DNA of 64,000 nt from Thermoplasmata archaeon (GTDB lineage Archaea; Thermoplasmatota; Thermoplasmata; Methanomassiliicoccales; Methanomethylophilaceae): the NCBI GenBank assembly GCA_015063225.1, contig SUSU01000005.1, forward strand, positions 1 through 64,000. Reading direction: 5' to 3'. Under the pieces are notes generated by a model. That model saw only the letters and a program-made list of their open reading frames with translations. It ran no database searches and was not told the origin of the DNA. Both the position numbers and the translations under genes were made by a program. Shown one piece after another: positions 7,821-31,218 of the stretch; the first letter of the stretch is position 1; every line of letters begins with the position of its first letter.

Positions 7821-9398
7821 ATGTCTGAAATACCACCACCAGGATTCACATCCGTGGCCGAGGAACAGGATTCCGAATCACTCCAATTCACCGAAGGAAT
7901 CATATCGTCCAGGGAATCCTCCGTCGATGCCATCATCCATCCCGCCGGGAAGGAACCCGACCGCATCGACGACCTCAGGGCCAAACTCTACATCCTCAAG
8001 GACGCCCTCAGGACCAAAGGCTTCAAGGGGTTCGTGGACTGCGGCTACAACGCCGTCATGAGCATGATCGGCCGCAAGGACCTCCTCCCTCCGGAACAGA
8101 AACCAGAGGAGAATGAAGAAGAAGTCCCGGATATCGAGGGGGACATCGACAAAGCCATCCAATCCTCCCACCCTTGCGATTCAAATATCCGCATCCTCGA
8201 CATCGTCAACTACATGATCTGCCCCCCCGTATCCGGCGGGATGCTCAGGGTCCTCGCCCCCCTGGAAAAAATACCGAAGGACAGCGGCATCACCATCGAC
8301 ATGGTGTTCGGCACCTGGGGCGCACAGTACGCCAGATCCTGCGAGGACTATCTCAACCGCATACCCGTGATCGGCCTCTCCAAGGGAGTCGTGGTTCCCC
8401 TCTACACCAAGGACCTCCCGGGTATCCCCGAGGACCTCCCCAAGGACGTGTGGATCACCGTATCCAAAGTACTCTTAGACTATGCCGTCACCCTCGTATC
8501 CAAGGAGAAGTACGACATCATCCAGATAGAGCACTCCCAGCTCTCATGGATGGTTCCCGCTCTCCGTATGGCATCCCCCTCCTCCAAGATTGTTCTCGAC
8601 GCCCACAACGCCGAATACAGGGTGTTCGAGACCTGGCTCCCCCATACCACAGAGAAGGACCGTAGGGAGATTGAATCAAACTATCAGAAGATGAAAGCCT
8701 GGGAATCCAGGGTGTGGGGCTGGTACGATGCCGCCTTCACCGTCTCCCCGGTCGAGGAGGACCTCCTCCGCGCCGCAGGCGTGGAGGACGTCTGTCTCGT
8801 CCCCACTGGGGGCGGCATCGACCCCGCTAAGTACGCCCCCGTCCCCGGTATCGAGAAGAGATACGACATCCTCTACATCGGGAGCATGAACTGGTTCCCC
8901 AACTACCACGGCCTCAAATGGTTCCTCAGGGAGGTCTATCCCATCATCGTCTCCAGGAGGCCCGGCACCGACTTCCACATCGTCGGCAACGGTACGCCTG
9001 ACAAGGAACTCCTCAGGATAGTGTCCAAGGTCAAGGGGGTCAAGTTCTGGGGCTTCCAGGAAGACGATGTGCAGTTCTTCCACACCTCCAGGGTGTTCGT
9101 CGTCCCCCTCTGGATCGGCGCAGGTGCCAGGGTGAAGATTCCCACAGCCTGGGCCGCGGGAATCCCCATCGTGTCCACCGTCTTCGGGGCCGAGGGCCTT
9201 CCCGCCGAGGACGGGAGGAACATGTTCCTCACCGACTCCCCCGAGACCTTCGCCGAGGATGTCATCTCCCTCCTCAACAATCAGGAACTCTCCGACAGGA
9301 TATCACAGAACGCACTCGAGACCCTCCGCGGCAATTACACCACGGAGATCTGCGCCGAGAAACTGGTGAAGGACTACAAGGAGATCGCGAAGCATTAA
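7821..9398 (+). CDS. GT4-family glycosyltransferase with long N-terminal extension
   Basis: A 525-residue GT-B glycosyltransferase. The GT4 core begins near residue 118 (NIRILDIVNYMICPPVSGG). It contains LDAHNAEYRVFE, DILYIGSMNWFPNYHGL, and the donor-binding region WIGAGARVKIPTAWAAGIPIVST. The first roughly 115 residues are acidic and low in predicted structure except for a helical stretch, and match no domain recognised here. The gene is divergent from the isomerase and converges on a paralogue whose stop codon overlaps its own at 9395-9398. Donor and acceptor sugars are unknown. Confidence 0.88.
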   Translation: MSEIPPPGFTSVAEEQDSESLQFTEGIISSRESSVDAIIHPAGKEPDRIDDLRAKLYILKDALRTKGFKGFVDCGYNAVMSMIGRKDLLPPEQKPEENEEEVPDIEGDIDKAIQSSHPCDSNIRILDIVNYMICPPVSGGMLRVLAPLEKIPKDSGITIDMVFGTWGAQYARSCEDYLNRIPVIGLSKGVVVPLYTKDLPGIPEDLPKDVWITVSKVLLDYAVTLVSKEKYDIIQIEHSQLSWMVPALRMASPSSKIVLDAHNAEYRVFETWLPHTTEKDRREIESNYQKMKAWESRVWGWYDAAFTVSPVEEDLLRAAGVEDVCLVPTGGGIDPAKYAPVPGIEKRYDILYIGSMNWFPNYHGLKWFLREVYPIIVSRRPGTDFHIVGNGTPDKELLRIVSKVKGVKFWGFQEDDVQFFHTSRVFVVPLWIGAGARVKIPTAWAAGIPIVSTVFGAEGLPAEDGRNMFLTDSPETFAEDVISLLNNQELSDRISQNALETLRGNYTTEICAEKLVKDYKEIAKH

Positions 9399-28373: not shown

Positions 28374-29527
28374 TGCTGACCCCTCCCGAGGGATTCCACC
28401 ACATCGTCCAACACTTTCTTCTGATATTCGGACAGGGGCTCCCCGGTCCTCTCCTCGAAGAACCTCGCGAAGAGCTCCTGCGGGGGGATCGCACGGATCT
28501 CCGCCACGGATGCTTCCAATCCCGTAGTATCCGCCCTCCCCCTGTCATAGAGACGCTTGACGCCGAGCACGCGGTAGACCTCGGCAAGCCTGTCGGTGGC
28601 CTTGTCCGCGGGTTCGGTGAGCTCGGCGAGCACGTATTCGTCGCCGTAGGCGTCCTTCCTGGAGAGGATCTCCTCTATGGTGCCGGTCAGCCTCACCATG
28701 CGGCGCTTGGGGACGAGGGGGACGGTCTCCACGGAGACGTCGCCCTTCCCCCTGACCTCCACGATGACCGCGTGCTTCTCATCATCTATCTCGGATTCGG
28801 AGTACTTCAGGGGGGAGCCGCAGTAGAGGACGGTGTCCCTGCCCGCCCTCTGGGGGCGGTGGATGTGCCCCAGAGCGACATAGTCGAAGGGTTCGAGGAG
28901 CTTGCTGGAGATGCAGTCCGCCCCTCCCACGGAGGGGAGCATCGTCATCTCCGAATCGGACCTGGAGAGCTCGATGTCCTTCCCCGTGACGAACTCGTGG
29001 GCCACGAGGATGTTCCTAGCACCGGGATCCGCCCCCGTGTTCGCCATCGTCAGGGCAAAGGCCGCGTCGGGACCGTCGATCGCGTCGGCGTCCGCACCGT
29101 TGTCCCTGCACCACCTGCGGACCGTCGACGTCTTGGTATAAGGTAATATGAAAATAGAGAGGGGACCGAAGGGATCCTCGAGATCGAACCTCTCCGCCTT
29201 CCCGGAGTAACGGCCGGTGACGAACACGTTCTGCCTGCTGAGGATCTCCTTCGCGAAGGACAGCCTCTCCACGGAATCGTGGTTGCCGGCGATCATGTAC
29301 ACCTTGCAGAACGTTGACAGCTCGGTCAGGAACCAATCCAAAAGGTTCACAGCGTCCTCGTTGGGCATGGCAGTGTCGTAGACGTCGCCGGCGATGAGGA
29401 CGGCGTCCACCCCCTTCTCCCTGGCGATGGCGCACATCTTCTCCAGGATGTCCCTCTGGTCGTCTATCATGCTGTAGCCGTGCAGTTTCCTCCCGATATG
29501 GAGGTCGGAACAATGCAGGAACTTCAT
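28370..29527 (-). CDS. sbcD: SbcD/Mre11-type DNA repair nuclease
   Basis: A 385-residue calcineurin-like phosphoesterase, the Mn-dependent nuclease of the SbcCD complex. It has the five phosphoesterase blocks: CSDLHIGRKLHG, IAGDVYD, IAGNHDS, a VAHEFV histidine, and ALGHIHRPQ. The C-terminal half carries the capping domain and the region that contacts the base of the SbcC coiled coil. It is first in a two-gene operon. Confidence 0.93.
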   Translation of the reverse strand: MKFLHCSDLHIGRKLHGYSMIDDQRDILEKMCAIAREKGVDAVLIAGDVYDTAMPNEDAVNLLDWFLTELSTFCKVYMIAGNHDSVERLSFAKEILSRQNVFVTGRYSGKAERFDLEDPFGPLSIFILPYTKTSTVRRWCRDNGADADAIDGPDAAFALTMANTGADPGARNILVAHEFVTGKDIELSRSDSEMTMLPSVGGADCISSKLLEPFDYVALGHIHRPQRAGRDTVLYCGSPLKYSESEIDDEKHAVIVEVRGKGDVSVETVPLVPKRRMVRLTGTIEEILSRKDAYGDEYVLAELTEPADKATDRLAEVYRVLGVKRLYDRGRADTTGLEASVAEIRAIPPQELFARFFEERTGEPLSEYQKKVLDDVVESLGRGQQ

Positions 29528-30751: not shown

Positions 30752-30761
30752 TATTATATAG
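30752..30761 (+). promoter_or_regulatory. TATA box ahead of structured RNA candidate
   Basis: TATTATATAG at 30752-30761 is a strong archaeal TATA box. A start about 26 bp downstream falls at 30780-30784, exactly where the helix-rich element begins. No protein-coding start lies near that position. Confidence 0.6.
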
Positions 30762-30780
30762 TCACAAAACGCGTGAGAAA

Positions 30781-30954
30781 TCCGCCAGGGAGGGTCCGAC
30801 TGCAGCGGACTTACACTCCCGCGGTCGGACCCCTGTCCTTGGAGGAGGTGAAAAAATCACCAAAGATACCGAGGGCCAGGTCAGTAACCGTAGGAAAGTT
30901 CTCCTGGCCCTCGTAAGACTCGTCCTCCTTTTGGCGGACATCCTCTTGTGAGGA
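30781..30954 (+). ncRNA. Candidate structured noncoding RNA or leader
   Basis: The bases fold on inspection into a closed multi-branch shape. Closing stem: 30781-30787 (TCCGCCA) with 30932-30938 (TGGCGGA). Inside it are a 9-bp stem 30792-30800 with 30824-30832 extended by GCGG/CCGC, a 5-bp stem GGTGA/TCACC (30847-30851, 30857-30861), and an 11-bp perfect stem 30870-30880 with 30903-30913. A small TCCTC-TTGT-GAGGA hairpin follows at 30941-30954. A TATA box sits 26 bp before the first stem. It does not show the conserved cores of RNase P, SRP RNA or a known riboswitch. It could be an independent RNA or a leader of carAB. Confidence 0.55.
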
Positions 30955-31065
30955 AGACACATCAGGCCCTTGCGGAACCGTTCCGTGTCCGTCCGAAAAT
31001 CCCCCTGTCCGTATATAAGGAACGCGCAGATCCCCGCCGTCGCGGGAACCGTCAGGGATACAAAT

Positions 31066-31102
31066 CCGTCTCGTGGGAGACGCACCCCGTCTCGTGGGAG
31101 AC
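31066..31102 (+). repeat. Two direct repeats that each form a hairpin
   Basis: CCGTCTCGTGGGAGAC occurs at 31066-31081 and 31087-31102, a 21-bp period. Each copy folds as GTCTC-GTGG-GAGAC. A TATA box (GTATATAAG, 31011-31019) about 50 bp upstream would put both copies in the 5' part of a transcript. The rest of 30955-31218 shows no coding frame or other feature that can be supported. Confidence 0.6.
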
Positions 31103-31218
31103 ATGTTACGGCGGTCACCTTCACCCCCGCCGGTGCCCGGACCGTCTACAAGAGTCTCACGGGCGCGTCCGAGAGGTTATCGATTGTCCGAAGATGGACA
31201 AAGCCCGTTCACCCGTGT

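Follow-up and report, generated by a model that had tools for sequence, protein, structure and literature searches.

The folded RNA upstream of carAB belongs to a previously undescribed gene family present in many copies among gut methanogens

The pelota-carA interval and its fold

The segment at positions 30752-30954 of the window (the whole 64,000-nucleotide stretch of DNA that was analysed) lies within the 606-bp interval between pelota, which carries the eRF1 domains, and the divergently oriented carA, in a 1.46-Mb genome of the methanogen order Methanomassiliicoccales. The initial annotation, made from the letters of the sequence, took this segment to be a promoter-linked, multi-helix RNA encoding no protein, which would be either an independent small RNA or a regulatory leader of carAB. 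As far as folding is concerned, this was borne out: the stems described are present in the sequence, and the segment folds to -90.7 kcal/mol, its dinucleotide-shuffled versions averaging -62.7 +/- 4.5 kcal/mol (z = -6.3; none of 200 shuffles reached this value). The segment beginning at 30781 also gave the best plus-strand fold (z = -5.65) in a coarse folding scan that sampled about 400 plus-strand segments of 160 nt across the window. Unusually stable folds were encountered in the sampled scan at 7901-8060 (plus strand, z = -4.9) and at 8701-8860 (z = -3.3 on one strand and -4.4 on the other) as well.

The 160-nt core has two global folds that differ by less than 2 kcal/mol (-79.8 vs. -81.7 kcal/mol). 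Fold A is the one initially proposed, with a 7-bp closing helix (30781-30787/30932-30938) and a GGAGGA/UCCUCC helix, while in fold B the same 5′ strand closes a long first hairpin (30781-30846). According to the folding model, this strand can pair with either the near or the far partner, in the manner of a bistable RNA or a pseudoknot. No Rfam covariance model matched the locus at its gathering score, in agreement with the earlier remark that no known archaeal RNA core could be recognised. RNase P RNA (RF00373) and SRP RNA (RF01857), being likewise compact structured archaeal RNAs, were both considered and rejected as identities, the gene for each being located elsewhere in the genome and the locus remaining unmatched by either model. 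The features of the locus are collected in Table 1.

Table 1. Features assigned to the folded locus between pelota and carA (window coordinates).
Feature	Position	Strand	Basis
Sense TATA box ATTATATAG	30753..30761	+	Sequence; A+T peak in the family
Predicted sense transcript	30781..30990	+	TATA spacing; R2 covariance match
5′ hairpin	30781..30846	+	MFE fold; family helices 1-3
Shine-Dalgarno GGAGGTGA	30844..30851	+	Nearly invariant in the 48-copy alignment
Hairpin GGUGA/UCACC covering Shine-Dalgarno and start codon	30847..30861	+	Pair probability >0.9 here; 22-35 of 48 copies per core pair in the family
31-codon ORF, (I/M)TKDTEGQVSNRRKVLLALVRLVLLLADILL; likely start AUC 30856-30858, stop TGA 30949-30951	30856..30951	+	Frame conservation; start-codon enrichment; predicted helix
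11-bp arm inside the ORF, coding for KDQG...LVL in relatives	30870..30913	+	Family helix 4
Hairpin GUCCUCC/GGCGGAC inside the ORF	30922..30939	+	MFE fold; family helix 5
Hairpin TCCTC/GAGGA around the stop codon	30941..30954	+	Fold; present in many copies
3′ hairpin CGGAA/TTCCG	30971..30987	+	Divergent form of the conserved AAAC..CTTAC-stem
Opposite-strand TATA box TTATATAC (minus-strand letters)	31011..31018	-	Constant spacing to the 3′ hairpin across family copies; column-aligned

The suggestion of a carAB leader (a riboswitch or an attenuator) draws on the position of the element upstream of carA in this genome, but both here and in relatives the start of carA is closely preceded by a conserved TATA box of its own. 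Moreover, the divergent pelota/carA adjacency is kept in most relatives, where the interval mostly measures 147-430 bp and, in those examined, holds no folded-RNA insert, and the strand of the neighbouring gene is random across the family described below, with 25 downstream genes on the same strand as the copy and 27 on the opposite one. A cis-regulatory role towards carAB was accordingly rejected as extremely improbable. In two of the relatives (L029 and L030), an interval of 868 bp was seen by eye to contain ferredoxin-like ORFs inserted instead, so that the pelota-carA interval may be prone to insertion.

A many-copy family with covarying helices and two opposed predicted promoters

A BLAST-level DNA search among 61 relatives returned only short, near-chance matches. 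A covariance model built from the single sequence of the locus (R1) and searched over 147 genomes of the order returned matches spanning the whole element in six other genomes, five of these matches coming from a single genome. A second model (R2), built on the alignment of the R1 matches, detected the element in 53 of the 147 genomes (E up to 0.1), dozens of the copies being strong and full-length; its match at the locus itself spans 30779-31005 (130 bits, E 1.5e-37). Four clear copies are found in the genome of the window and up to 13 R2 hits in another, tandem copies being frequent, with pairs lying 350-450 bp apart. When 400 Thermoplasmata genomes were covered, matches at E up to 0.001 were confined to members of one family of Methanomassiliicoccales, to which the RNA family is thus limited, and the carrier genomes of that family include rumen ‘Candidatus Methanomethylophilaceae’ assemblies. 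The existence of the RNA family is nearly certain, and the folded RNA upstream of carAB is one of its many copies.

For the search for conserved helices, 48 copies were aligned with MAFFT and subjected to an unbiased column-pair scan, which recovered the 5′ hairpin at its base, two further 5′ helices (one local, one of longer range), the 11-bp arm, a hairpin close to the ORF end, and the 3′ hairpin. Over the first five of these helices, 90.1% of the cells are paired and 100 cells have changed on both sides, compared with 31 in shuffles (0 of 500 shuffles reaching the observed count), though these shuffle counts are not probabilities, the related copies not being independent of one another. Helices 1-3, which make up the 5′ hairpin, are 86-93% paired with compensatory changes, and helix 4 (the 11-bp arm) is 95% paired, with both sides changed in seven of its ten aligned pairs. 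The strands of the local and longer-range 5′ helices overlap, so these two are either alternatives or the parts of an H-type pseudoknot. The hairpin at 30922-30939 occupies a position equivalent to that of a conserved UUCGGCU..GUCGAA hairpin.

Loss of the stems in homologous loci had been named beforehand as the result that would speak against the RNA. Of the five stems initially drawn, the 5′ hairpin and the 11-bp arm are clearly kept, the small hairpin over the Shine-Dalgarno is only partly conserved, and two are not preserved: the closing helix and GGAGGA/UCCUCC pair in just 49% of cells (48 copies), with no clear excess over controls, and were rejected as conserved elements.

The strong TATA box noted at the outset, with its spacing of about 26 bp, recurs in the family, where the A+T content peaks at 0.92 at position -26 from a conserved GCCAGG (50 copies with enough upstream sequence). 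Position -26 is the usual place of an archaeal TATA box. A second TATA box follows at a distance of about 55-70 nt beyond the opening AAAC of the 3′ hairpin; its score is higher on the opposite strand in 23 copies, and the same strand is favoured in four. At least six of its eight positions match in 22 of 37 non-redundant copies, as opposed to 3-6 of 37 in control windows, and at least seven of eight in 11 copies on the minus strand and one on the plus strand; at the cut-off of six, the box is missed in approximately 40% of copies. Since both TATA boxes lie outside the region used for model building and searching, they lend independent support to the unit. Judged from the sequence, a putative antisense promoter is probable, with a predicted start near 30985-30992. 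Just upstream of this opposite-strand TATA box are two identical repeats of CCGTCTCGTGGGAGAC (31066-31081 and 31087-31102), each an inverted repeat in itself, which are possible regulatory sites of the antisense promoter.

The unit, in order, comprises the TATA box, the 5′ fold, the Shine-Dalgarno, an ORF of about 30 codons carrying covarying helices, the 3′ hairpin, and the opposite-strand TATA box. The extent first assigned to the element must hence be prolonged beyond 30954 to about 31018, whereas its description as a promoter-linked, structured, and undescribed RNA unit of its own holds, with the exception of its non-coding character.

A peptide reading frame inside the fold

In place of the absence of protein coding initially assumed, a 31-codon ORF extends across the right half of the fold, in a frame kept in 48 of 48 copies. 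An ORF of about 30 codons follows the near-invariant Shine-Dalgarno in every aligned copy and stops just before the 3′ hairpin, all 48 ends falling within 10-16 codons of one reference column (TGA in 32, TAA in 15, and TAG in one). A purely structural, non-coding RNA, in which the ORF simply results from the helices being conserved, would account for the two covarying helices inside the ORF and for the lack of a canonical start in about half of the copies, but it fits poorly with several properties of the alignment. The loop of the 11-bp arm (P5) measures 17, 20, 23, or 26 nt, and its lengths are equal modulo 3 in 47 of 48 copies; no stop occurs in the ORF frame over the 46 columns compared, while 318 and 1489 comparisons include a stop in the two alternative frames; and replacements are conservative, the mean BLOSUM62 score of differing codons being +1.27 in the ORF frame versus -0.73 and -1.2 in the others. 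Differences per codon position amount to 0.48, 0.26, and 0.59, the third position being the most variable, and the pattern of hydrophobic and charged residues is kept outside the helices too. The non-coding explanation is very unlikely in this light and the unit very probably encodes a conserved peptide, even if the helices within the ORF could by themselves conserve some of its codons. A sequencing or frame error in the A-run of the present copy is unlikely because copies in other genomes share the same phase.

The N-terminal part of the peptide is charged (KDQG) and is partly set by the RNA arm, whereas the helix that follows has the pattern L-V-L-E-x-x-R-L-L-x-E-L-L-R, and its charged residues form an E..R...E..R strip of alternating sign at a 3-4-3 spacing. 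Among 42 peptides, alignment positions 24 and 31 are acidic and positions 27 and 34 basic, and the residues in between are never charged; the strip is less regular in the present copy than in the family consensus. AlphaFold2 predicts a single helix over residues 9-30 of the peptide encoded here. Searches of Pfam, NCBIfam, and PADLOC gave no family match, and PHROGs only weak ones, to two entries whose function is unknown (E 0.18 and 0.28).

The manner in which translation begins is less uniform. At 6-8 nt past GGAGG, a start-like codon is present in 33 of 48 copies (AUC in 15, CUG in 13, AUG in four, and AUA in one), relative to a background of 24% elsewhere in the ORF, and the remaining 15 copies have none at this favoured position. 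Neither ATG, GTG, nor TTG lies at a usable distance from the Shine-Dalgarno in 26 of 48 copies, and the GUG of GGAGGUG was rejected as a common start because it does not share the ORF frame in roughly half of the copies, among them the present one, where AUC is the sole candidate and lies within the hairpin that holds the Shine-Dalgarno. From this codon usage, the start is likely to be AUC or CUG in most copies, which suggests that weak initiation may be deliberate. In several copies the frame is interrupted ahead of or within the ORF by a stop codon, most often TAG; among them are those at L095 4001-4601 and L096 8258-8492, where TAG falls within the ORF (two such copies belong to the genome studied here). 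UAG is read as pyrrolysine by many members of the order. Some of the in-frame TAG copies may be readable in this way and others have probably decayed; more generally, copies without a start or with a stop may in part be decayed or may follow an initiation rule different from those recognised.

A type I toxin-antitoxin-like reading and its rivals

With respect to ORF conservation, composition, and predicted helix, the predicted product is a hydrophobic/amphipathic helical peptide of fewer than 60 residues, as is characteristic of type I toxins, and it is encoded in a covarying structure with an antisense TATA box at a fixed distance, in copies that stand alone or in tandem. The locus is, on balance and by a modest preference, read as a type I toxin-antitoxin-like module. 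The sense promoter would give rise to a compact, highly folded mRNA, in which the Shine-Dalgarno and the usually weak AUC or CUG start, placed in or beside the structure, would allow the peptide of about 31 residues to be made only rarely. Once made, the peptide would form an amphipathic helix, one face of which is lined by alternating charges, and act on the membrane of its own cell by depolarising or permeabilising it. The convergent minus-strand promoter would produce an antisense RNA whose 5′ end is the complement of the 3′ hairpin, beginning at the foot of that hairpin and running back through it towards the ORF, and its pairing with the 3′ region of the mRNA would lead to silencing or decay in the fashion of TxpA/RatA. 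Growth arrest or defence against invasion may be the physiological role of such a module.

The charge strip has a counterpart in TisB of Escherichia coli, on the helix of which acidic and basic residues likewise alternate (PMC8309996). TisB/IstR-1 resembles the family in its amphipathic helix of about 30 residues, one face of which carries this alternation, and its inhibitory structure at the 5′ end of the mRNA and its control at the RNA level are what would be expected of the family too. In contrast, IstR-1 pairs with a 5′ standby site whereas the putative antisense RNA of the family would be cis-encoded and convergent, no homology to TisB or other known type I toxin families was detected (Pfam, NCBIfam, PADLOC, and PHROGs), and the family has archaeal promoters and a start that is often AUC or CUG. 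TxpA/RatA and BsrG/SR4 of Bacillus subtilis provide the convergent arrangement of an mRNA for a small hydrophobic peptide and an antisense RNA, the 3′ sides of which are expected to overlap, but they too lack homology to the family, which is archaeal, has an ORF that is itself heavily structured, and would show such an overlap to judge from the position of its promoter. Hok/Sok and Ldr/Ibs are multi-copy and often tandem, with structured mRNAs in which alternative pairing limits access to the ribosome site, as may hold for the family; they differ in the absence of homology, in the placement of the antisense RNA, and in that the family's host is an archaeon.

Type I systems had been known only from Proteobacteria, Firmicutes, and Tenericutes, according to a 2025 paper that itself adds one cyanobacterial case (PMC12390103), and no archaeal example was found in the open-access literature. 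That the present family is the first of its type in Archaea, i.e. a multi-copy, convergent sense/antisense module whose TisB-like membrane peptide starts at AUC or CUG and is hidden in a covarying fold, is given even odds. If so, the type I class would extend to Archaea through a large family of gut methanogens, candidates for RNA-controlled, self-toxic archaeal peptides would be in hand, and non-AUG initiation in archaea would become a testable question. A strongly folded ‘non-coding’ RNA can, by this example, conceal a conserved peptide gene.

The same peptide and RNA evidence applies to a small, membrane-associated regulatory peptide that is no toxin, acting at a membrane complex of the host and made from a structured mRNA under post-transcriptional control, with the antisense promoter tuning its level. 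Small proteins of methanogens do regulate membrane complexes, MtrR being an example (PMC13370731). However, tandem, patchy, multi-copy occurrence, the lack of fixed neighbours (among 41 loci, at most five have any neighbouring protein family in common), and weak starts are more in keeping with a dangerous product than with a housekeeping regulator, and this explanation is considered unlikely.

Distinctly doubtful is a non-autonomous element, selfish or mobile, or else a satellite of a mobile element, the RNA and peptide of which would serve its own spread or retention. Such an element would explain copies that are multiple, tandem, and patchy among species, and here inserted between conserved neighbour genes, but no match was found in 50,697 phage records, in 72,556 plasmid records, or, by pattern search, in viral contigs, nor was any transposase or integrase a common neighbour at the 41 loci. 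An addiction module would look alike, and the mobile-element and toxin-antitoxin readings overlap to that extent.

Two minor observations were made outside the unit. A palindrome, TTGTCCGAAGATGGACAA, lies at 31184-31201 upstream of the carA TATA box, with a similar palindrome, TTGTCC..GGACAA, occupying a comparable position in most relatives within the order, and is likely to be a carAB operator (putative). The tRNA-Gln called by ARAGORN at 28818-28911, inside the sbcD-like gene and on the other strand, is probably a false call.
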